This document shows, one piece after another, positions 6,625-60,118 of a DNA stretch of 64,000 nucleotides. This DNA comes from Mytilus galloprovincialis. Taxonomy: Eukaryota; Mollusca; Bivalvia; Mytilida; Mytilidae. Both the position numbers and the translations under genes were made by a program. A model generated the notes under the pieces. It made no database searches and had not been told where the DNA came from. It saw only the letters and a list, made by a program, of their open reading frames with translations. Numbering within the stretch: position 1 is the first letter of the stretch; each line of letters starts with the position of its first letter. The stretch spans positions 58,735,078 to 58,799,077 of the forward strand of contig NC_134841.1 of the NCBI RefSeq assembly GCF_965363235.1, given 5' to 3'.

Positions 6625-6700
6625 TAACTTGAGTCTTATGTAGACGAAGCGCGCGTCTGGCGTACTAAATTATAATCCTGGTACCTTTGATAACTAATTG
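6625..6700 (+). repeat. Hammerhead-like repeat, degenerate copy
   Basis: It matches the repeat at 9067-9135 from GAGTCTTATGTAGACGAA onward, then CGTCTGGCGTAC and CTGGTACCTTTGATAACTA. The core reads CTTGAG instead of CTGATGAG, and GAAA is GAAG, so a catalytic fold is not expected. It abuts the donor of pseudogene exon 2 at 6708. Confidence 0.6.
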
Positions 6701-9036: not shown

Positions 9037-9440
9037 CTGATTTATAAACTTTATAAATATTTTGATATGAGCGTCACTGATGAGTCTTGTGTAGACGAAA
9101 CGCGAGTCTGGCGTACTAAATTATAATCCCAGGTTATCACCAGCCCAGTAGTCAATACTTCGGTGTTGACATGAATATCAATAATGTGGTCATTTTTATA
9201 TATTTCCTGTTTACAAAACATAGAAATTTTCGAAAAACTAAGAACTTTCTTATCCCAGGCATAGATTACCTAAGCCGTATTTGGCACAACTTTTTGTAAT
9301 TTTGGAACCTCAATGCTCTTTAACTTTGTACTTGTTTGGCTTTATAAATATTTTGATATGACCGTCACTGATAAGTCTTATGTAGACGAAACGCGCGTCT
9401 GGCGTACTAAATTATATAATACTGGTACCTTTGATAACTA
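9037..9440 (+). repeat. Dimer of a 291-bp hammerhead-ribozyme-like repeat
   Basis: Two hammerhead-like cores lie in direct orientation with a 291-base period. The first has CTGATGA at 9077-9083, a stem II of GTC/GAC (9084-9086 with 9094-9096, extendable by T87-A93), GAAA at 9097-9100, then a stem III of ACGC/GCGT (9100-9103 with 9111-9114) followed by A and C. The second, at 9368, is the same except for CTGATAA in the core. Between them lies the unit body, with the words CAGCCCAGTAGTCAATACTT, TAGATTACCTAAGCCGTATT and TTGTACTTGTTTGGCTTTAT. Family knowledge: hammerhead motifs occur in Penelope-like elements and in retrozyme-type repeats that give small circular RNAs in animals including mussels. 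Inference: this is such a non-autonomous unit. I could not find a convincing stem I, so self-cleavage is unproven. Confidence 0.6.
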
Positions 9441-10334
9441 TTAACTTGAAAACGAGTTCATCGACCCGTTTGTTTTTCAAATTGTCATTTGGTTTGATTG
9501 TGTATGAATATTATTTGTACCAAATTTCATGAAAAAGTCAATGATGCAATTTTTTTTTAAATTTGAGAAAGATATACAGCACAAAATAACGATTTTTTTC
9601 TTCATTCATGAGCATTTGAGGAATTTTTGTTATTTCTAAACAAAATATTTCATGAATTTATGGGATACTTATATAAAAGAGAACTTATAAATAATTTAGA
9701 AAAAAATGCCTGTGTTTATCTCTTAAAACAAAAAAGTTATGCATTTCTGTTGGGAGGAAAAATACGTCCACAAATCCGAATTTTGAGCAAATATCTTAAA
9801 TATCAACATCATTTTACTCAAAAAGTAGCACATGAAGCTATATTTTTTATTACATATTTCATTTAAGGAGGTAAAAAATAGCCTTTATATCTAAAAGGGA
9901 AACATTCTCACCGTCAGAAATAAACTGATGGACATGCCCTTAAATATTATCTTTATCTACATTCCTCATGGATAATGAGGTTGAAACCAAAATTAATAAT
10001 ACCAAGTTGGATATTAACATGTTAATATAAACTATATGACCTATATTTTTTAAAGTTGACATTTCATCATTAATCATTGATACACCATTGTAATTAATCA
10101 CTTGATTTAAATAAAAAAAAAAATAAGTACGTGTAAACATATTATCGATGCATAATCTTCAGTGATGTTTTACGTTCTACATAGCTTCTTCATTACTTAA
10201 GACGAACGATACGATTACAGAAGTTCTGAGGCAACGGTCATGACGGTAGTTGTTAAAACCTCCTTAATTCACCAAGAACATAAACAAAAAAATGGTAAAA
10301 AAACTAAACTTGACGGAATAGCATCAACTCCAAA

Positions 10335-12140: not shown

Positions 12141-15100
12141 TTAGTTTAGTGATTTTTCACATAAACAAAATTGATGTTTAGCGCAATCATCGTCATTCCA
12201 TTGACCATTATCGCCGATTCTTACTTCCAAACAATCTTCATTTCCTTTTAAATTGTCAGGTTGACCAGGATGCCAAAACGTTGGGTTGATTATACTATAT
12301 GTGGATGCCCACCTCCAGTCAGATTCATGAACATCATCTATCCCGTCCAACCAGAAGTCACCTTACAAAAAGATTGTAAAATTCGTTTTAACACATTAGA
12401 AAATACTAGTAAAAAAATTAACGGTACCAATTTTCTTGCACCAGATGCGCATTTCGACAATACATGTCTCTTCAGTGATGCTCGTGGCCAAAATATTTGA
12501 AATCCAAAGCTTATATAAAAGATGAAGAGCTATAATTCAAAGGGTCCAAATCCGTGAAAGGAATCAGAGCTTTGCATGAGGGAGATACATTCCTTAATTT
12601 ATAATAATTTCTATCATTATGTAACAGCAAATTTTAATAACACAAAAGATCCGTATTTTCATGCCAGTACCGAAGTACTGGCTACTGGGCCGGTGTTACC
12701 TTAGGGGACTAATAGTCCACCAGCAGAGGCGTCGACCCAGTAGTAGTAAAAAGTAAAACACAAAAATACTGAACTCCGAGGAAAATTCAAAAAGGAAAAT
12801 CAAAAATCAAAAGGCAAAATCAAAAGTCCAAACACATCAAACGAATGGATAACAACTGTCATATTCCTGACTTGGTACAGGCATTTTCTAATGTAGAAAA
12901 TGGTGGATTGAACCTGGTTTTATAGCTAGCTAAACCTCTCACTTGTATGACAGTCGCATCAAATTCCATTACATTGTCAACGATGCATGAACAAAACAAA
13001 CATACTCAAAGAGTAAAAATGTCAAAAATAGGGGTACAACAGTCAATATTGTGTTATCATCTTAATATCACTACATAAACAACAAATGTAACAAAGTAGC
13101 ACAAAAAGGCATAAAAAAATAAAATTAACGGTACCAATTTTCTTGCACCAGATGCGCATTTCAGTAAAGTAATTACTACAAATGTTATCCAGCTTAACAT
13201 ATTGCTGGTAAAGTTATAATGCTTGTTGTAGTTGGTTTTGTAATAGTTTGCATCAGAAAGACATCAATAGTAATAAATGAATAATTTTGTATCTGAAAGA
13301 CAATATGCAAAAATTAATCTCAAAAGAAATTTTGGCTTTGTTAAGAATGTCCTTTTTATTATTTTTTTTGTATATTTTCTCTAATACTGCAAAAATCGGT
13401 TACAATGGCAGTTTCGCGAATATTGATTATTCAAGTTCAAGAGAATTTTTAATAATTTTATAATCAGTTAAGATTGAAGAAAATGACTAGTGTGTGAAAT
13501 TCAGGTGAAACCTCTTTATAATTGTTTATTTGTTGCCCTGAATGCAATAATTTTGACTACTGTGGACTCATTTATTTTCGTAAAGAAAAACTTGTATGTT
13601 CGTGGATTTTTAATTTTGGAGTTTTGTCGAGGTCTACATAGGAGTAATCTCACACTTATATTAAATAAATATATAACTAATCAGATTAATTTTGTTTAGA
13701 AATATGATGTTTTGTTTCTAAAAATATTTCTTTTTGGTTGATTCAGGTGACTATGATTACATATATCATATTATTTCAAAGTTTTAATGTTGCACATACA
13801 GTATGCTTATTGCTTGAATATGTATTCCCTTTTCAGTATTAATTTTAACGTACCAGCTGAATGAAACTTTGAAAATTCATGAATTTCATCTTTTTCTTGT
13901 TTAGATTCCACTGTAGCAAGATGTCCTCCCACTGATCGGCAGTAGTGCTGAAAGTTTTATACAGATATTTACAATAATATATAGAAATCTGGGGTATATG
14001 CAATGAGATAGTTAGGCAATAGGGACACTTTGACATTCATTTAAACGTTCTTCAATACGACATACTATTATCATGCGACGAAAACCGCTGGCGTGAAACT
14101 TTTTTGTGCTTATATGACGTTGAGATACACGAATTCTAGTGTTTATTACAGATGGCCTTTCATAATTTGATGTCTCAATGAAATAATAAAAAAAAAGTAG
14201 TACATGTACTGCACATTTGCCGGTTGACGCTGAAAATCAACATTAAAAAAATAAAATATTAAGCCGTTATATTTACCTGTTCAATATTGTTTGTACATTT
14301 TTATTATTAACATTTTTCATATTAACTAAGAATAATCATCAACATAGTACAGAATTATGATGATATATTAGAGATGAACCTGGAATCAACCAAAATTGCA
14401 ATCGGATTAAAATAAAGATCCTGTGTTCGACCATTGTATTTATGATTTGAAAACACTCCGTTTTACTTTCGTCCTGATAATTATTTACAGCAGTCAATGG
14501 AATTTCATCCCTCAAATTTTCAAAGATGTGTATAAATAAATCCGTCAAAACTAGATCATCCTGAAAGTCTTAAAAAAAAAAACAGAAACTAAAACGAGAT
14601 GTCTCACCCCGTGAGTAACGCTTGGAGACGGACCTGTATTTTAAAAATATTTCCATACTTTTATCAAAATATAATAAAACAATATTATGAGCTTATTTGA
14701 CAAAATGTTACTAGTAACAGCTTCCAGGTTGGCTGCCGTCTTTCATTTTCTCAATAAGTTAGTTGATTCCTGTTGATACTTGGCGGATTTTGTTTCATTG
14801 AATTTCACTTTAATGTCACCTTTTATGATTCCTCACATACAAAAGAGAATGTTTTCTGTACGTAAAAGTGGTTAAACCAAATCATATTTATTGTATAAAC
14901 AAATCAAGGTTTACAGTATTAGTATTATCTGTTGATTATTTTGTCTGTCTAGAAATCTTTTTTCTGAGGAGTGGCAAGTTGGAAATAAGTGTGGTGTGAT
15001 GTTTTACGGAAAACAAGTAAAATAGCAAAAATACTGATCTCCGCGGAAAATTCAAAACGAAAAGTTCCTAATCAAATAATAAAACACATCAAGCGAATGG

Positions 15101-17378: not shown

Positions 17379-17559
17379 GATGTAAGTCAGCTATGAGGCC
17401 GACTCAACTGTAACTGTTGTATCCTTTATCTCTACTTCGATGGGATAAATGCGTTTAACATAGTCACCAAATTTTGAATTATTTAGTGAAAGAACATGAT
17501 CTATATAGCGGAAAGTAGAATGAAAGGATATTAATAACTGTTTACAAAATTTTAATTTT

Positions 17560-17765
17560 TTTTTTGAAATACTTAGGCTTTTCTACCCCAGGCATAGATT
17601 ACCTTAGCTGTATTTGGCAAAACTTTTAGGAATTTTGGTCCTCCATGCTCTTCAACTTCGTACTTTATTTGACCTTTTTAATTTTTTGGGATTCGGGCGT
17701 CACTGATGAGTCTTTTGTAGACGAAACGCGAGTCTGGCGTATATACTAAATTTAGTCCTGGTATC
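17560..17765 (+). repeat. Hammerhead-like repeat, single copy
   Basis: It ends with core CTGATGA at 17703-17709, GTC/GAC stem II, GAAA, and stem III CGC/GCG, matching the unit at 9.1-9.4 kb. The preceding body words (CAGGCATAGATTACCTTAG, TGTATTTGGCAAAACTTT) match too. The front of the unit is missing. Confidence 0.6.
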
Positions 17766-20700
17766 TATGAACACAGTTCAAAAAACGTAAATGTTGAGCA
17801 AAACAACTCCACTAACAAATAGCTTCCAAATACTAATTGTGTTCGAATACATTTTGAAATTATTTGAAGTTACCACTGAGGAAAATTGGTTAAATAGCAA
17901 GAGAAAAATTTTGACCAGCTATACAACAATGTTTAATCCACCAATTTATTCGGAAAATATCTGTTCCAAGTCTGTAATATTACTGTTGTTTTTCACTTGC
18001 TCCGTTGATTGGTAGAGTTTGATTTGTCAGTTATAGTTTATCTGATCACCTTTCGAATTTACCCTTGGAGTTCGTTCGGTACTTTTGTTATGTTTCACTT
18101 GTTAACAAAGCTTCCTTTCAATCAACTACTGAGAGAAAAACCTGGAATATTTTAAATTATATTATAAATTCTACATATAGGACGTAATCACGTTTCATCA
18201 ACCTATGATCATAAGACTTAAAACAACATTAAGGATTTTGGGGTCCTCTTTAATACCCCTTATATGTATATATGTAACAATATTCTAGTTAAGAACTGAA
18301 ACAGGTGAATTACAGGTAAATACTAAGATGCCAGTCAATAAATCCATAATGTAATTGTAAGTCTGATTATCAAATGTTGGAGAAATGTGAACACAACCGA
18401 CCTAGTTGCCAGACTTTACCTATTCAATAATGTTTGAATTTGTTCCCATGAAAATGCATGCATTATCTCCCACTGGGCGTTTAACAAACCAACAATCAAT
18501 CATTGATCTGACAGTTATCTTTGTCTTCAATAAATTATAATGCTTAAAATCATAAAATACAATACTTTCTTGAATGAATTGAAGTATTGTTGCATGCAGA
18601 AGAATGGATATTTATAAGGCAGTGTTGCCAGACGAAAACACTAAATAAAAACTTCAGATACACTGTAGTTTTGACAACTTGGTTATTCATTTGAGATTCT
18701 TTGAGCCTTTTTTTGTTGGGATGTATTTGATGTTTGCATGTTCAGGTATCGGCGTCACTTGCTTTCATTTCGTTTTGAATAATCAAGTTCTCTAAAATTC
18801 ATTTTCAATTGTATGTTTCAAGATTAAAATCAAATTTATCTACAATTGGCGTAAACATGTACATACTAATTGTTGGTTGCAAATGATATTAGGTATTCTA
18901 AACACTGAGTCTAATGTCTATCAAACATCTCATTGTGTTTAAGAGGAAGTGCAAATGTCAAATCATTTATGTCGACCCAGTTGGCAGTTCCTATCTGTTT
19001 AGTTTATTGTTAGTTTGGTATCGTCATGAATATGCATGAAAAAATTCGTCACTGGACGTTATGTAAACGGTGTTCATACGTTAAAAATATAAATAATAGA
19101 ATTATAAATTTTAGGCTCTTGTTGAAAATTTTGAAATGCATTCAGTTACACCTTAAAACATTTACTCTATATAGTCACTTCGATTTTTCTGTGCTGAATG
19201 CAGGCATGGTTTAACAATTTATCCTGAACAACGAGGAAGTACTTTTACAATTCGTATTTTCGACTAACGAACTTTGAAGATAAAGACACTAAGATATGAC
19301 ACATGTCTATGGCTGCACCATGGGAAAATGTAGCTGTCAGATTTTTATTATTTGCCACTGTATAACCCGCAATTTCTAATATGATAAAAAAAGTTCATTT
19401 ATAAAAAAATATAGCGAAATCCTATATTAAAAAAAACTATACCCGCGAGCCCCTTTGTAATTTTTTCATATATATTTCGTTACACAGTTACTTTATAAAA
19501 TAATTTGTCTCACAAAAACAAATTAAATCGACAATTTAATATTTGTTTTTAGTTGCAAATTGATAAGCTTAAGTGCTTGTGTGCGCACTGAGGTATTAAA
19601 ATATTCTCGACTGAATCGAAGACGATAAGTGATGATTTACGGTATTTCACGTTAACTGTCGAGTATTTGCACGTACATATGTTTTGTTGAATAATTCATG
19701 TTTAAGACGATATATAAATACTGCAGATAGTTTAAATATTACAAATTGATCAATTCTAAAGTTTAATTCACAAATACCGGTAATTGAGTTACGAATTTCT
19801 ATATGAAATGAGAAAATATGCCTTAATTTTAACCAAAAAAATCGGATTGTTTGTAATGTAAATAAACATTTTTTTAAAACAAAAAATCTTCAGTGTTACA
19901 TAAGATATGATAGTTTTATATCTCTTTTGGTTGTTTATACCTATACTTTTTTTTTAATCGCTTTATATTAAAAATTTTAAATAAAAAATACTTAGTTGTG
20001 ATTACTAAATGAGGGAACCATTGAAAAGAACGTTTTTAAACCTCTTTTGGACATTTTTTTAGTATAACACCTTGTATTCTATCAATAAGATAATGAAGTT
20101 GAATTCAATCAAAAAAAAATCGCTGTACTCTGGGGTGTAACACAAACTCCTTAACTAGAGCGCTTTTGAAAACTAGTGCTATTTTAAATATCATAGATGA
20201 ATATAATAGGACTGACAAGGAACAGACAATGAAACGCATATGTAATATATTTAATGAATTTGGCTACGGACAGCTCCGAGTGATTGTACAGGAGGGCTCC
20301 AAGCGATTGTACTGTAAACTTGCAAGCGATTGTACAGTCAATTAAAATATCCGACATTTAGAAAATGAATATATTGGGATTTCTTCTTGGACAATGACTT
20401 TCAAACTTTCAGACAGGTAAAACTATATATCAGAAAAGGTACATATGAAAATTCTGATAGTAACGATGGATTTTTCGATGTTTATTAAACATTTTTGATC
20501 GCTGCTCCGTCACAGTTTTGATCGTTTTACTCGGAGCCCCACCATTCTAGTGAAAACGTTTGGATGCATATGTCATTTTCATTATTTTATTGGTTCATAT
20601 ATATGTATAGAATATTTTGAATATCAAAACTTGAAGCAGAAACGTTTTATAGTAACACTTGAGTTCATCAAACTTTTCATCAAGCAACTTGTTGTTGTTA

Positions 20701-21301: not shown

Positions 21302-24300
21302 TTAATCCATGTTCATCTGTAATTTTAACTTTTTGAAGCTTTTTGTGAGATAGCGGACTTCATTTTTCACCCTGAAATATACAAAAAAATGTAGCATAAT
21401 TGTATTGTCCGGTAACTATAAAAACAAGAAGTAATTTTCATTATGACGAATAATATATAAATATAAGAACTTAATATAAGATGAACAGTTGCTTTTGCCT
21501 TTAGCCTTGTTAGTGTTAAGATTTTGATATAAAAGCATACTAAGTGATTATTCCTCATAGCCTTGCAGCGGTTCAGAATTTTATGTAATGATGAAATAAA
21601 GGATACGTAACATTTTTATAATAATTAGTAAATCAATCGCTGACTTTGTTTCACACTTTGTAAAAAACTCACTTTGGTTTAAATTTCTGGTCAATGATTT
21701 TTTGTTTATCAATGTTAACTCTTTTTGAAGAAGCACCGTCTTTAGATATTCTTCTGACCTGTTAAGATATAAATGAAAAGAGTAAAACCATGTCAGAAGA
21801 CAACAGTTGGACATTGAAAAAGCTAAAGCCTCCATTGCTATACAAAGTTAAAGAGGATTTCATTAAACAACAATAGTAAAAAACATAAAATTCTGCTGCT
21901 GTGGGTCTGTCGGGTCGAGCTCTAGAAGGCAACATCCGAGCTTCAAATCAACACGATAGAAATGATACATCTTGTCTTCACTTATTTAATTGTCAAAAAA
22001 ATGGAATCGATCTACTCCGACAAAGAATACATTAAGATGTTTTGACTTTTTTTTCAAACCCTGTTATTTTAAATACTTTCAAAAGTTCATATTTTTCTTT
22101 ATTTTTAAGGGTTTTCCAACTTCGATAGATATCTGACATTTTTATAATGAATAATATCTGTTTCTGAATGTTTGCTTGTGTGTATGGGTTGGTAAGGGGG
22201 TGTGTGTGTGTGCGTGTATGTGCTTCTTTCGTGCCTTGGACGTTGGGGAAAGGAAAGTTTCAGGTTGAAAGAAATCGACATTGAATGTCAAGAGTAAAAT
22301 GGAACAAGGTTATTATAGTACGAAGCACCGAAAAAACTCTGTATATCAGATAAAAATACGATATGTATGCATTGAGATTTAGTGAAATCAATAGCGTATA
22401 ACAATAACTGCACGGTAGGAAACTGAGATGAATCATGATTTTTTTTAAAATAAGGTTAAGGAATATGAAAAACAACCTTTACTATATTGCAAAATGTGTG
22501 ACCATTTATATTAAAAAAAGCAAGACGATAAAGTTTGAATAAAAGTGTAAATTACATACTGTTACAAACAATGCGATTTCTTTAAAAGAAACAAAAGTTC
22601 AAGAAAGCCGTTGTAACGTGTAATTGTAAACCAACCTTCCTTTTTGTTGTCTGAAACACGTCTTCTGTTTTTGTTGTCTGAAACACGTCTTCTGTTTTTC
22701 TTGTCTGTAAGACGTCTCCTGTTTTTGTTGTCTGTAAGACGTCTTCAGTGTTTGTTGTCTGAAAGACGTCTTCTGTTTCTGTTGTCTGTAAGACGTCTTC
22801 TGTGTTTGTTGTCTGGAAGACATTTTCGGTTTTTGTTGTCCGAAAGACGTCTTTCATTTCTGTTGTTAGAAAGACGTCTTCTGTTTCTGTTGTCTGGAAG
22901 ACGTTTTCTGTTCCTGTCGTCTGTAAGACGTTTTCTGTCTTTGTTGTCTGGAATACGTTTTCGGTTTTTGTTGTCTGAAAGACGTCTTCTGTTTCTATAG
23001 TCTGTAAGACGTCTTCTGTGTTTGCAATTGGTGTCTGGGAGACGTCTTCTGTTTCTATAGTCTGTAAGAAGTCTTCTGTGTTTGCAATTGGTGTCTGGGA
23101 GGCGTCTTCTGTGTTTGCAATTGGTGTCTGGGAGACGTCTTCTGTGTTTGCGATTGGTGTCTGGGAGACGTCTTCTGTGTTTGCAATTGGTGTCTGGGAG
23201 ACGTCTTCTGTGTTTGCAATTGGTGTCTGGGAGATGTATTCTGTGTTTGAGATTGGTGTCTGGGAGACGTCTTCTGTGTTTGTAATTGGTGTCTGGGAGA
23301 CATCTTCTGTGTTTGCAATTGGTGTCTGGGAGACGTCTTCCGTTTTAGTTGTCTGTGAGACGTCTTCTTTTTTTATTGTGAGGAATACGTCTTCTCTGTT
23401 TTTATTGTCTACCTGCTGACTGTTTGATACAGTTAAGCGCTATGGTAAAAAAAACGTAAAATTTTAATAGGCAATTATTTTAAACATATTAATAACAATA
23501 CATTTTAGAAACTGCTATTTCACTTATTTTCTCTTTACAGCTGTGATATCTGAGGAGTATGAAATGAAAAAAAATAAGCTATGCTAAATTATATTAAAAG
23601 CAAGATAATAAAATTTGAAGACAACATTTAATTGTTTACTGTAACGTACTAAAATACGATCTTGGTTTTTGTATAAAAAAAGAAGTTCAAGAAAGCCGTT
23701 GTAACTTGTAAATTGAAACCAACCTTCCTTTTCGCTTGGTGTAAGACTTCCTCTGTGTCTTTATCATCTACTGTCTGGCTAAATGACACTGTTAAACACT
23801 ATGGCAAAACAAAAACATAAAATTTGAAAGATGATTAATCATCATATTAGAAACTCATACATCATTCGGTCCTTTTGGAGTTCGTGCAATTCACTAAGTT
23901 TTTGTTTTTAATATAAAAAAGAAGATGTTGTATTGCCAATGAAACAACTGTCCACAAGATACCAAAATGACACAGAAATTGACAACTATAGGTCACCGTA
24001 CGGCCTTCAACAATGAGCAACGCCCATACCGCATAGTCAGCTATAAAGAGCCCCGAAATGAAAATCGTCATTTGTACAGTCTTCATCGCTTTACGAAAAT
24101 TTAAATATCAGCAAACTGATGTTGCTTACATATTTAATGTATAAAATCATACAAAAACGATTTTGCTATTATATATTCTTGTTTCGTTTTATAAATAACA
24201 TATAATTCCCCTAGATAGTAGAAAGTGCACTTTGAAATTAACACTTAGGTTTGCAACTTGCAGATTTACTATACTACATGTATAAACAGACATTATGTAA

Positions 24301-48358: not shown

Positions 48359-49546
48359 CAGGGGTTAAAAAATTCACTAGCCCGACGCCCGGGACTAGAG
48401 CATTTACGCCTCGGGCAATCAAAATTTTTAACCGAATATGCCCGACGGACTAGTGACAAAAATATTCTTGGCGTTTCCAAAATAGATAGTAGAAAACCCC
48501 TTCATCCCTATTCTATCTTAGCCAATCAGATTCAATTACGTCATCCGGGATTCAAAGCATTTGAACTGGTTTGTACAGGTTTAGGGTTGCGTTCAATATC
48601 GTAGCCGCTACTTAGGGCTACACAGATTTATGACTATTGAACGTGTAGCTAGCCTAGCTGCTACATAGATATTGTTAGCAGCTAGGCTAGCTACTCGTTC
48701 AGTAGACAAAAATCTATGTAGCACTACGTAGCCTTTGCGATATTGAACACAACCCTGTTCTACAGTTACATGTTTTAAAAATAGAACAAATAACTCAGGG
48801 TGGCCAGGTATCATCTATTGATCGCAATATTTTACACTTTCAATATCGATTTCTCAGAACAGGGGGTATTGTACATTGCTTCTGTCGAGATTTTCAATTA
48901 ACGGTACCGATCATTATGTATTGGTCTTGTCGGACAACTGTTGAAAACGAAACAATACAACAAAATATTTCAAAATATTTGAGAACGGGCATCCCATGAA
49001 CTTCGTTAGTTTCAAAGCAAAAATCGGTAGACGAAGGGGGTACTAATGAGGCTGAAAATTCATCCAGAAAAAAATGTAAAATACGATCGGGAAAAGCGGA
49101 AAAGAACATATCTAGTGACATGGACAGAAAGATTCCTCTGGGCAAGGTCGGCTGTGGCGCCAGGATGAAAAATCCGAGACCATGTTCTGCTAATATTGCC
49201 AGTGTTTTCCAGAGCACGCCAATAAAAAGTCTCCCTTGTATGTGTGGACAACAAATATAATAATTAAACCACTTGTTTCACACGATAAAACCAATGAACA
49301 TGTTTTCTCTGCCTGATGACCCATAGTACTACAACGGATAAAAATGAACTAGTTTAATACAGTATATTATGTCCCCTTCAAAACATGACACCCACCCTGT
49401 ATTATGCAGAAAACTCTGATTTGTAAGGCATATATGGGCTAGCAGTTCAGTTTTTATGGGCTAGCAGTTCTTCGAACAGGGCTAGTAAAATCCTGCTGCC
49501 AAAAATTCCTGGGCTAGTTAGCTGTAACAACATTTTTTAACCCCTG
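48359..49546. mobile_element. 1.2-kb element with CAGGGGTTAAAAAAT ends
   Basis: CAGGGGTTAAAAAATTC at the left and its counterpart AACATTTTTTAACCCCTG at the right form 15-bp inverted ends. Both ends have CTAGCCC or GGGCTAG words just inside. A clear target duplication is not visible. The interior has no recognisable transposase and contains the smaller MITE at 48583-48756. Confidence 0.5.
48583..48756. mobile_element. MITE with AGGGTTGCGTTCAATATCG ends, 174 bp
   Basis: Ends AGGGTTGCGTTCAATATCG and CGATATTGAACACAACCCT are inverted. Inside, CTAGCCTAGCTGCTACATAG and AGCAGCTAGGCTAGCTAC form a second inverted pair, so the whole can fold into one long hairpin. The terminal sequence is of the type seen in hAT-like MITEs. 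Confidence 0.75.
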
Positions 49547-52558: not shown

Positions 52559-55500
52559 CTGAAACAATATTTTGTTATTCTAATCATCGTAATTATAATT
52601 CAATGAAAAGTTCTTAACATAAAATGTGGACTTTTAAAATTGGAATATTTCTTCATGATTTACATGCATTTCTTGAAACGTGTTAATAAAATATTATGAC
52701 AAAAACGGCATTCGGTGACTATAAGTACAAATACATAAGAATATCAATTAACGACCATAAAACGAGTACAATATGTAATTTCTGGCTGTTAACATTAAAT
52801 GCGAAGCTGTATTTTGCAGAACTTTATAATTTAGATTTTATTTCATTTTACTTTTAAATATTTTGATATTGTCTCATGATAGTCTATACCTTTTTATAAA
52901 CACAACATTATTTTGTAACATAAAACTTACTCTTTTCCTGTCTTCAATATCCTATCAAATGTATCACAATCTATCATGGATTTCCGGCTACTTGACGTGC
53001 CTACAAAAAATACATATATGTGTTCATAAATGTATGCAGTATGGTCAGTTGAATAATACAAATTATAAAGAATAGGCAATAAAAATCAGACTAAAAATCA
53101 TTTAATTTCCGATATTACAGACAACAAACGTTAGGATACAGGAACAAGTAAATTGGTAGTACTAAAACCTCTGAAAAACCTCCCTGTTACCGTTAGCAAG
53201 TTGGAAGTTCTTCACCTGCTTGAGGATAAATCATTCCGTCATACAATGCCACTGCTGGTGGACATTTCGTCCCCGAGGGTATCACCAACCCAGTAGTCAG
53301 CACTTCGCTGTTGACATGAATATCAATTATGTGGTCATTTTTATAAATTTCCAGATACAAAACTTTGAATTTAGATTACCATTATAGCCGTATTTGGCAC
53401 AACTTTTTGGAATTTTGGATCCTCAATTAATGAATGGCTATTATCTATTTTGAATTTATTGAACCATAAAACTAATTTTTGACTCTTCACATTGAATAAT
53501 CCGCGAAGCGGATTATGTAAAATGTGAAGAGTCAAAAATTAGTTTTATGGTTCAATAAAATCAAAATAAATTATTGCCATTCATTATAAATAAATTTCTA
53601 TCAAAAATAAGGCTCAAAGAACTTTTTATATTATTTATATTAACAATAACAACGTACACACATGTTGGCGTATGAATACACAACGTCAGAGTGGGCGTGT
53701 CGCCATCAAAATTGACAACATTGAAAATAAAACTAATAATTCTAACCAATCAGAAGACAGTAAAAACACCAAATTTATTTATTGCTCTTCAACTTTGTAC
53801 TTGTTTGGCTTTATAACTATTTTGATATGAGCGTCATTGATGAGTCTTATGTAGACGAAACGCGCGTCTGGCGTACTAAATTATAATCCTGGTACTGTTG
53901 ATAACTAACAGCCTTTTAAATAAAAAAAAAAAATGTTGGTTTTGTTTTAGCAATTTTTTTGTGAAAATGTCAACGAGACAGCAACCCAACACACAACCCT
54001 CAAACAAAAATAAAAACTTGTGTTCTCTTATTATGATTGTTTTTTTTTGCCCGATCAACAATTATTTTAATTTCAAGTCTATCTACACAACTCTCGTCAC
54101 ACAAGGAAAACATTTTTGCCGAAAAGTAGTTTCAGCTAGATTATTAAACAAAAAGGTCCAGGCAACTATATGCATGTATACCGAGTTTAAAATAACAGTA
54201 AAGGTATATGCCTCCTGTTATAATGTTCTTTTTTTTTTTTAAGTCATCCCAAAATATCTAAGAATATGCATTATGCGTTTCTTAACTTACTTCTTTCTGG
54301 TGTCATATTTGTCCAAATTTGCACTTTAATAGGAGTAGTATTTTCTACCTGATCACTAAAAAAGAAAAATAATAAGTATTTTCCAAATAGTCAGGTTAAG
54401 TCAGAGTATACAGATTAAACCTAAAACAATGGTTTGTCACATTCATAAATACATGGATGTATATCTCATGGACGTACAACATGAAAAATAAGAAGATGTG
54501 GTTTGATTGCCTGTATGACAACTCTCCAACAGGGAATTTTCAACTGTAGGTCACTGTACGGCCTTCAACAATGAGTAAAATCCATACCTTATAGTCAGCT
54601 ATAAAATGCCCCGAAATGACAACTGTAATATATACAATTCGAACGAGAAAACTAACGGACTGAATTATGTACAAAATAATGAACGAAAAAACAAATATCA
54701 TACAGCAACAAACGACAACACCTGACTTGGGACAGATACATATATAATGGGTCAGGGTTAAACTTCATTTTGTGGCGGGGTTAAACTTCATTTTTTTCAT
54801 TTTGAAGGTACGCCAATCCTCTTCTAACCTAGCTAATTTTTGTCCACATTTCCGACTGCTATTACAATACAATGGATTTATACAATAGTGTATAGCATAT
54901 TTGATTCGGGTTACATGATCTACTACATTTGCAGTACCGACATTGATTCAGTAATAGGGGTGGTTTATCATAAGAATATAACATATCACGTGTATTTTTT
55001 TTAAACTTGGGATTTTAAGATCTGCTAGAATATAAATATCGAAGTATTGCAAGAAAAGTTTAAATCAAACCAAATTTTGAACACGATCTTTTCGTTGATA
55101 GATGGAGAACTATCTTGAGAAACAGCAAACATATTTTTATACGTTGTGTAATACTGCTGTGCGGAACATGCATTTAATTTATTATTATTATTTAAATAAA
55201 ACTACGGCCATAATGCATCCGATAAATTGTTTACTTTTAAGCTAATTATAACTTATAAGCTAACATTTTATGTGTCACCTTCTATTTCTAACTTTTTTGT
55301 TCTAGCAACATCTGACGAATACTATAAAGGGAATGTTTTGAAGTAGTTTTACATTTTTTCATGCACACACTCTTAACTGACAATTGTATCTTATAATGTA
55401 TAACAAGTCCTATACTAAAGATATTGATACAAATGTAGCTTGAATACACACTTCGGACATCTAGTGTTGTCGTCCTTCAATAGTGAACACAATTGATATT

Positions 55501-58690: not shown

Positions 58691-60118
58691 ACGGTGGCAG
58701 AATGAGCCCATGAAGAAATTAATATGTTGTCTCTTAAGATAATATGTCGTTCCCTCAAAATGCTATGTCGTTCCCACGAGATAGTTATCTCGTTCCATCA
58801 AGATGCTATGTCGTTTCAACAAGATAGTTATCTCGTTCCCTCAAGATGCTATGTCGTTCCCACAGGCACAAGATGCTATGTCGTTTCAACAAGATAGATA
58901 TCTCGTTCCCTCAAACTGTTCTGTTGTTCTCTCAAGATAGTTATCTCGTTCCCTTAAGATGCTATGTCGTTCCCACAAGATGCTATAATGTCGTTTCAAC
59001 AAGATAGATATCTCGTTCCCTCAAAATGTTCTGTTGTTCTCTCAAGATTATTATCTCGTTCCCTAAAGATGCTATGTCGTTTCAACAAGATAGATATCTC
59101 GTTCCCTCAAAATGTTCTGTTGTTCTCTCAAGAAAGTTATCTCGTTCCCTCAAGATACTATGTTCGTAAATTTTACAGACGCCATCACGAGTTGGTTGAC
59201 CGTTATGGAATAACCGTTTCACAAATGATATCGGATATGTTCCTTACGTCGTAACTACAATTCCCTTTCATGAATGTGTCCTACCGAATTAGACTATTTT
59301 AATACCGGATTAAAATTTTGTAATGATCACATAAGCAACACGACGGGTGCCACATGTGGAGCAGGATCTGCTTACCCTTCAGGAGCACCTGAGATCACCC
59401 CTAGTTTTTGTTGGGGTTCGTGTTGTTTATTTTTTAGTTTTCTATGTTGTGTCATGTTTACTATTGTTTTTCTGTTTGTCTTTTTCATTTTTAGCCATGG
59501 CGTTGTCAGTTTGTTTTAGATTTATGAGTTTGACTGTCCCTTTGGTATCTTTCGTCCCTCTTTTCCCTCAAGATACTATGTTGTTACCTCAAGATATTAT
59601 GTCGATCCCTAAAGACATTATTTCGTTCCCACAGCATAGCAATAAAGTTTGAATAATATATCAATACAATTATATAACTATGTTTAGAGAACAACATAGT
59701 ATCTTGTGGGAACGAAATAACTATCTTGATGAAACATCATAACATATTGAGGGAACAACATGATAGTATCTTGTGGGAACGAGATTACTATCTTGATGAA
59801 ACAACATAACATCTTGAGTGAACGACATAGTATCTAGAGGGAACGATATTACAATCTCGTGGAAACGACATAGCATATTGAGGGAACGACATAGTATCTT
59901 TTGGGAACGACATAGTATCTTTTGGGAACGAGATAACTATCTTGTGTGAACGAGATAACTATCTTGTGTGAACGAGATAACTATTTTGTATGAACGAGAC
60001 AACTATCTTGTGTGAACGACGTTGCATCTTGAGGGAACGACAAAGCATCTTGAGTGAACGACAGAGTATCTTGAGGGAACACATTTTTTTTGTATTTCAT
60101 GGCCGCATTCTGCCACCG
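58691..60118. mobile_element. Fold-back element with inverted minisatellite arms
   Basis: ACGGTGGCAGAATGAGCCCATGAA (58691-58714) is inverted at 60095-60118 (TTCATGGCCGCATTCTGCCACCGT). Inside lie arrays of 21-23 bp: on the left, units such as AAGATAGTTATCTCGTTCCC and AAGATGCTATGTCGTTCC (58735-59160); on the right, their reverse complement such as GGGAACGAGATAACTATCTT (59675-60085). The two arms face each other, as in Drosophila FB-type fold-back elements. There is no transposase. A 5'-truncated retroelement piece sits in the left arm. Confidence 0.8.
59160..59573 (+). mobile_element. 5'-truncated retroelement end nested in the fold-back element
   Basis: It begins within the FYRRHHELVDRYGITVSQMI coding tail, followed by the UTR (CATTTTTAGCCATGGCGTTG, GAGTTTGACTGTCCCTTTGG). 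It ends at TCTTTCGTCCCTCTTTT. The words CCCTCAAGATACTATGTT lie on both sides, consistent with an 18-bp target duplication, although the array is itself repetitive. Same family as 16735-17378. The piece is a fossil. Confidence 0.65.

Follow-up and report, generated by a model that had tools for sequence, protein, structure and literature searches.

A worn type I retrozyme copy in the mussel Mytilus galloprovincialis and the common 3' end of its relatives

What is the pair of hammerhead-like motifs near 9 kb in this stretch of mussel DNA, and does it give rise to a small RNA circle? In a first-pass annotation of the window (the whole stretch of 64,000 nucleotides analysed here), the locus had been described as a dimeric hammerhead repeat with a 291-base period, the genomic form of a retrozyme, from which a 291-nt circle was predicted. 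We consider it highly probable that 9049-9445 represents the mussel type I retrozyme, a putatively non-coding retroelement of about 355 bp, in the form of an old genomic copy that is truncated at its 5' end and carries an internal deletion, and that its family has a fixed 3' end; this confidence covers the identity and the fixed-end pattern and excludes which enzyme copies the retrozyme. By its published description (PMC7229834), the retrozyme of M. galloprovincialis is of the type found here, and the locus itself is an ordinary, worn member of that kind. The points that deserve a second look are the common 3' end with its hairpins and a third ribozyme family, not the 291-nt circle.

The locus at 9 kb and the state of its ribozymes

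The whole copy measures 397 bp, or 1.36 times the 291-base period (Table 1). This period is exact between the two predicted cleavage sites, and both hammerhead cores lie in direct orientation where they had been placed. Only 77 bp are duplicated (9049-9125 versus 9340-9416, 94.8% identity). A 39-nt motif, with at most three mismatches, has four copies in the window (9077, 9368, 17703 and 53837) versus none in 100 shuffles; the last two are the further copies that had been noticed at 17.7 and 53.8 kb. A scan for the core with stems I and II gave three window matches (9077 and 17703 on the forward strand, 12444 on the reverse), whereas 40 Markov controls of one 64-kb strand each gave no match.

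Table 1. Retrozyme copies and fragments in the window
Feature	Position	Strand	Remark
5'-truncated first unit, family A monomer positions 296-355	9049..9108	+	96.7% to 355-bp genomic monomer
Type I hammerhead of unit 1 with intact CUGAUGA/GAAA core, predicted cleavage after 9108	9071..9114	+	
Unit shortened to 291 bp, monomer positions 1-21 fused to 84-355	9109..9399	+	exact junction once in genome
Type I hammerhead of unit 2 with CUGAUAA core (G8 to A), predicted cleavage after 9399	9362..9405	+	
3' terminal segment, monomer positions 1-44, stops at usual family 3' end	9400..9445	+	
Single 5'-truncated copy of family B (364-bp unit) with hammerhead at 17697-17740	17528..17768	+	
Family C (350-bp unit) near-full copy, hammerhead 12438-12481, CUGAAGA core	12407..12754	-	missed by the first-pass annotation
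Family C 3'-end fragment, monomer positions 1-33	13118..13150	-	
Left part of family A copy, beginning near monomer position 57, split by another insert	53246..53427	+	
Family A copy, right part, hammerhead 53831-53874 (UUGAUGA core, C3 to U)	53783..53907	+	
Family A 3'-end fragment, start inside hammerhead	6630..6697	+	

Stem I, for which no good pairing had been seen before, does form in unit 1, with six pairs of which two are wobble (A-U, C-G, U:G, G-C, C-G and G:U); unit 2 has lost the outermost of them. Stem II of unit 1 has 4 bp, and its stem III consists of A-U and C-G under a GCGA loop, a form with 163 exact genomic copies versus 13,301 for the usual GCGC. The core is intact in unit 1 and carries one change, G8 to A, in unit 2; the G8-to-A form occurs in 303 exact genomic copies. 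G8 matters to cleavage, as G8C abolished cleavage in the Penelope-like element PAc (Frangieh et al. 2024, PMC11167929). The type I core (CUGANGA, GAAA and UH, with three stems of which stem I is open) is present in unit 1 and in the 17.7-kb and 12.4-kb copies, and is broken in unit 2 and in the 53.8-kb copy by the changes given in Table 1. Cleavage would be plausible at 9108 and unlikely at 9399. Because of this change of G8 in unit 2, an efficient 291-nt circle from 9049-9445 would be unlikely.

The Rfam hammerhead model RF00163 matched both units, with 27.5 bits at 9071-9114 and 24.6 bits at 9362-9405, but both matches stay under its gathering score of 34, which no window copy reaches (24.6-28.8 bits). 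When the 481-bp stretch was searched alone, the E values were 1.1e-4 for unit 1 and 1.1e-3 for unit 2. Genomic relatives score higher, with 33.0 bits for a family A locus (L012) and 34.0 bits in two of the four matches at a family B locus (L059). Together with the related 355-bp units in head-to-tail arrays, these scores bear out the hammerhead and retrozyme reading.

The 291-bp unit, with a G+C of 34%, corresponds to a 355-bp unit that has lost positions 22-83. An exact-pattern search of the 1.38-Gb genome, which diverged copies would escape, matched the deletion junction once, at the window locus. On this count we rejected the 291-nt circle as a product of the family, and, with G8 also changed in unit 2, the circle is not supported as the natural product. 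A specially stable 291-nt circle was also rejected, as 56 of 100 shuffles folded equally well or better. The deletion takes out the left part of a hairpin (positions about 46-105) that is common to three families; a second hairpin, whose loop is usually UUCG, comes next. Computed on 13 hand-chosen sequences, the two hairpins have 95.5% of cells paired and 21 double-change cells versus 7.0 in shuffles (none of 500 had as many), while the number of pairs with a double change, five, was not unusual (101 of 500 shuffles).

Three families across the genome

The assembly searched comprises 1.38 Gb in 331 contigs, of which C1-C14 measure 73-133 Mb. The intact 32-nt core has 13,301 exact copies and its reversed control none, and the core matches listed occur on all of C1-C14. 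No match to the core was found on viral contigs. The unit length is 355 bp in family A, 364 bp in family B and 350 bp in family C, and family A forms head-to-tail arrays of its 355-bp unit, for example with seven full units at L012. Metazoan non-LTR retrozymes were taken to be non-coding units in head-to-tail order, each about 150-450 bp long and carrying a type I hammerhead, with a G+C below 50%; the families agree with this in unit length and tandem type I hammerhead, and the 291-bp unit in G+C.

Family C, with its CUGAAGA core, is represented by 3,271 exact genome copies of one 35-nt form. Position 7 of the hammerhead is variable, and this core is allowed. These include 44 exact core matches at 350-bp spacing in one long array (C1:433,303-448,387, in the L081-L092 region), and a family A fragment lies beside this array (L081). 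Compared with family A, both sides are changed in one pair of stem I, two of stem II and one of stem III. In 18 hand-chosen hammerheads, 14 of them distinct, 95.8% of stem cells are paired, and 12 double-change cells were counted versus 3.1 in shuffles (none of 500 had as many); pairing drops to 18-48% of cells when the stem partners are slid. The number of stem pairs with a double change, four of 12, was not unusual (73 of 500 shuffles), and all of these double changes separate family C from families A and B, so they may represent few events. From this comparison of aligned copies, family C keeps all three predicted stems through paired changes. RF00163 gave no report for the family C units in L081 and in the window at E up to 10. 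The third family suggests an abundant class that escapes the Rfam type I model. Neither family C nor the common 3' end was met in the literature, within the scope of the search and of the parts of the sources that it covered.

Several other features lie in the window. The family A copy at 53 kb is split by a 355-bp insert (53428-53782), whose part 53428-53586 matches its own reverse complement with 88% over 161 columns; by this sequence, it looks like a small inverted-repeat transposon. A long hairpin on the reverse strand (48626-48714) gave a weak match to Rfam MIR3522 (32.6 bits versus a gathering score of 100) and is probably an inverted repeat. Tandem repeats of about 21 and 43 bp occupy 58733-60084, in one orientation to about 59.63 kb and in the opposite one from 59.67 kb, and a tandem array of 27- and 33-bp units at 22641-23410 contains AGACGTCTTC.

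Insertion ends and the possible copying enzyme

The ends of genomic copies were collected from 46 loci, 21 of them drawn from the sequences most like the window copy and the other 25 from the first 80 clusters of contig C1, all picked by the hammerhead or by the window copy. After pieces below 80% identity or 90 bp were dropped, 49 arrays remained, of which 41 end in family A with a unit junction, six end in family B and two have no junction. The sampled 3' ends lie 32-55 nt downstream of the cleavage site in 50 of 53 cases, and the 5' ends are variable. In family A, the 3' end falls at positions 39-46 in 33 of 41 arrays and at 35-52 in 39 of 41 (the exceptions being 20 and 338), while the 5' starts are spread from 1 to 327. 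Three of these arrays start at position 1, which is the cleavage site; as the flank resembles the ribozyme end in two of the three, this may be an alignment effect. The 3' ends fall at 46-55 in five of six family B arrays, the sixth reading 364 owing to an indel in the tail, and at 32-37 in six of six family C cases (from the window and four loci). Genome-wide, the terminal 20-mer continues for 14 nt across the end in only 2,349 of 11,362 cases (20.7%), compared with 5,082 of 8,877 (57%) for an equal step inside the unit.

Target-site duplications, which in metazoan retrozymes exceed 4 bp when present, were not above control: five of 43 arrays share at least 7 bases, with a control mean of 5% and maximum of 16%. 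No consistent poly(A) or microsatellite tail was seen at the ends of the sampled arrays. Divergence within arrays is below the mean between arrays (5.1%) in eight of 11 arrays but reaches 7.1%, a spread from which the origin of an array in a single circle does not follow. By eye, a stretch near monomer positions 51-61 resembles a B box and one at 1-11 an A box, as candidate RNA polymerase III boxes. Reverse transcription from the end of a cleaved linear RNA would not leave a constant 3' end some 40 nt beyond the cleavage site, which points instead to internal initiation or to a transcript ending there.

To which enzyme could such ends be due? Penelope-like elements have already been named a strong candidate helper (PMC7229834), and the same genome contains probable ones, a label that rests on the GIY-YIG domain, frame length and a hammerhead-like motif. 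A GIY-YIG profile gave 1,001 candidates; all of the 150 scored exceeded the curated cut-off, and several of them lie in open frames of 780-911 aa. Five 3' flanks were read (L096-L100, which enter (TA)n tracts). A hammerhead-like motif is present in four of them, which belong to two families; judged by eye, it is clear in one of these families but degenerate in the second, and the fifth flank (L098) has none. Rfam reports neither family's motif as a hammerhead. At the four loci with the motif, the distance from it to the start of the (TA)n is 44 or 84 nt for one family and 67 or 104 nt for the second, a spacing that corresponds to an optional extra 37-40 nt and matches in size the optional 30-40 bp described for published Penelope-like tails. 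L096 and L097 are identical over 461 bp, which suggests recent activity.

The same few tens of nucleotides between hammerhead and 3' end are found in the retrozymes, and by this match in length the retrozyme end looks like a Penelope-type tail. The target habits of the two differ, however, with a (TA)n tract in five of five Penelope-like flanks and within 60 nt of none of 45 retrozyme arrays. Direct sequence homology between them was considered and rejected, as comparison with L097-L103 gave nothing convincing (best E 0.001, on the reverse strand, over 46 nt). In PAc, whose enzyme is described in PMC11167929, reverse transcription initiates internally, mostly 111-118 nt into the ORF and at a second adjacent site; the hammerhead cuts at 26 nt, and the ends of genomic copies coincide with the initiation sites.

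LINEs and SINEs, too, are marked by a constant 3' end and 5' truncation of variable extent, and a LINE (RTE, CR1 or similar) could mobilise the retrozymes by ordinary target-primed reverse transcription at the RNA 3' end, the fixed end being that of a primary transcript which terminates about 43 nt past the hammerhead. We regard this as unlikely, though well worth bearing in mind: hammerhead cleavage would put that end at monomer position 355, not 43, the ends lack the consistent tail of adenines or microsatellite noted above, and Penelope-like copies of the same genome end at a comparable distance past their motif.

Long arrays such as that on C1 would also suit a satellite DNA with an incidental hammerhead, spread by way of DNA circles or through unequal crossing-over. 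Such a satellite is very improbable, because the listed matches are distributed over all of C1-C14, the sampled copies, many of which fall short of a full unit, share a 3' end, and the three stems are preserved via paired change; the RNA circles published for the mussel (PMC7229834) weigh against it too. A reading of the 9037-9440 motif as an unrelated repeat, or as a likeness due to chance, might appeal to the Rfam scores of the window, all under the gathering score, but its probability is practically negligible: it is already refuted by the shuffle and genome counts, and two intact family B copies reach 34.0 bits.

Returning to a Penelope-like helper, a mode of copying may be proposed. Arrays would be transcribed and their units would cut themselves at the hammerhead, a step of which the window data show only the conserved fold; transcription of arrays, self-cutting and retrozyme RNA circles have all been published for M. 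galloprovincialis, with both linear and circular monomers in its tissues (PMC7229834). A host RNA ligase would then close the monomers to circles, as published in vitro. From the insertion ends measured, we infer that reverse transcription may begin internally, at a defined point some 40 nt downstream of the cleavage site and immediately ahead of the conserved two-hairpin domain, and that copying could exceed the length of one unit on a circular or multimeric RNA. Copying would halt at variable points and so leave the 5' truncation that is seen as a pattern. The enzyme would probably be that of a Penelope-like element, although we give this about even chances. The initiation itself would be of the Penelope type, as argued from the comparable place at which the PAc enzyme starts and from the tails of the Penelope-like copies in the same genome. 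In PAc, hammerhead mutants insert as well as the wild type and unprocessed RNA seems to be the main substrate (PMC11167929), so cleavage and circles may not be needed.

More tentatively, and with slightly less than even confidence, animal retrozymes may be parasites of Penelope-like elements that mimic their internal-initiation signal. The hammerhead and the two-hairpin domain would be a portable landing site, on which the enzyme would start about 40 nt past the cleavage site of a circular RNA, roll round it and write multi-unit, 5'-truncated insertions; the third family, with its CUGAAGA core unreported by Rfam, would then show the ribozyme and hairpins to be under selection. A review (PMC7761336, section 9) states for animal retrozymes that there is no conserved motif for deducing the helper reverse transcriptase. 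The common 3' end with the adjoining conserved hairpins is a candidate for such a motif.

Comparison with known systems

The closest known system is the non-LTR retrozyme of M. galloprovincialis itself (Cervera and de la Pena 2020, PMC7229834), for which repeats of about 350 bp in head-to-tail order, each with a type I hammerhead, are described, along with the same low G+C, thousands of copies and two similar ribozyme families. Its likeness to our copies was judged by this published description; the clones are MN642551-MN642576. The locus 9049-9445 differs from it in its deleted 291-bp unit and its core change, the published repeats being 350-390 bp. Amphibian and coral type I retrozymes are likewise described there as non-coding tandem units with a type I hammerhead, and animal retrozyme repeats as being without LTR, PBS and PPT. 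Plant LTR retrozymes resemble them in that hammerhead-flanked units give circular RNA, but differ by type III hammerheads, LTRs, PBS, PPT and 4-bp target-site duplications, according to the accounts in PMC7229834 and PMC7761336. PAc, in turn, has a minimal type I hammerhead a few tens of nucleotides before its genomic 3' end, tandem copies and an internal start beside a stem-loop (PMC11167929); the retrozymes resemble it in the place of the hammerhead, the tandem units and the proposed internal start beside their hairpins. They differ from it in having no known coding region, a hammerhead with stem III and insertions that are not at (TA)n tracts.
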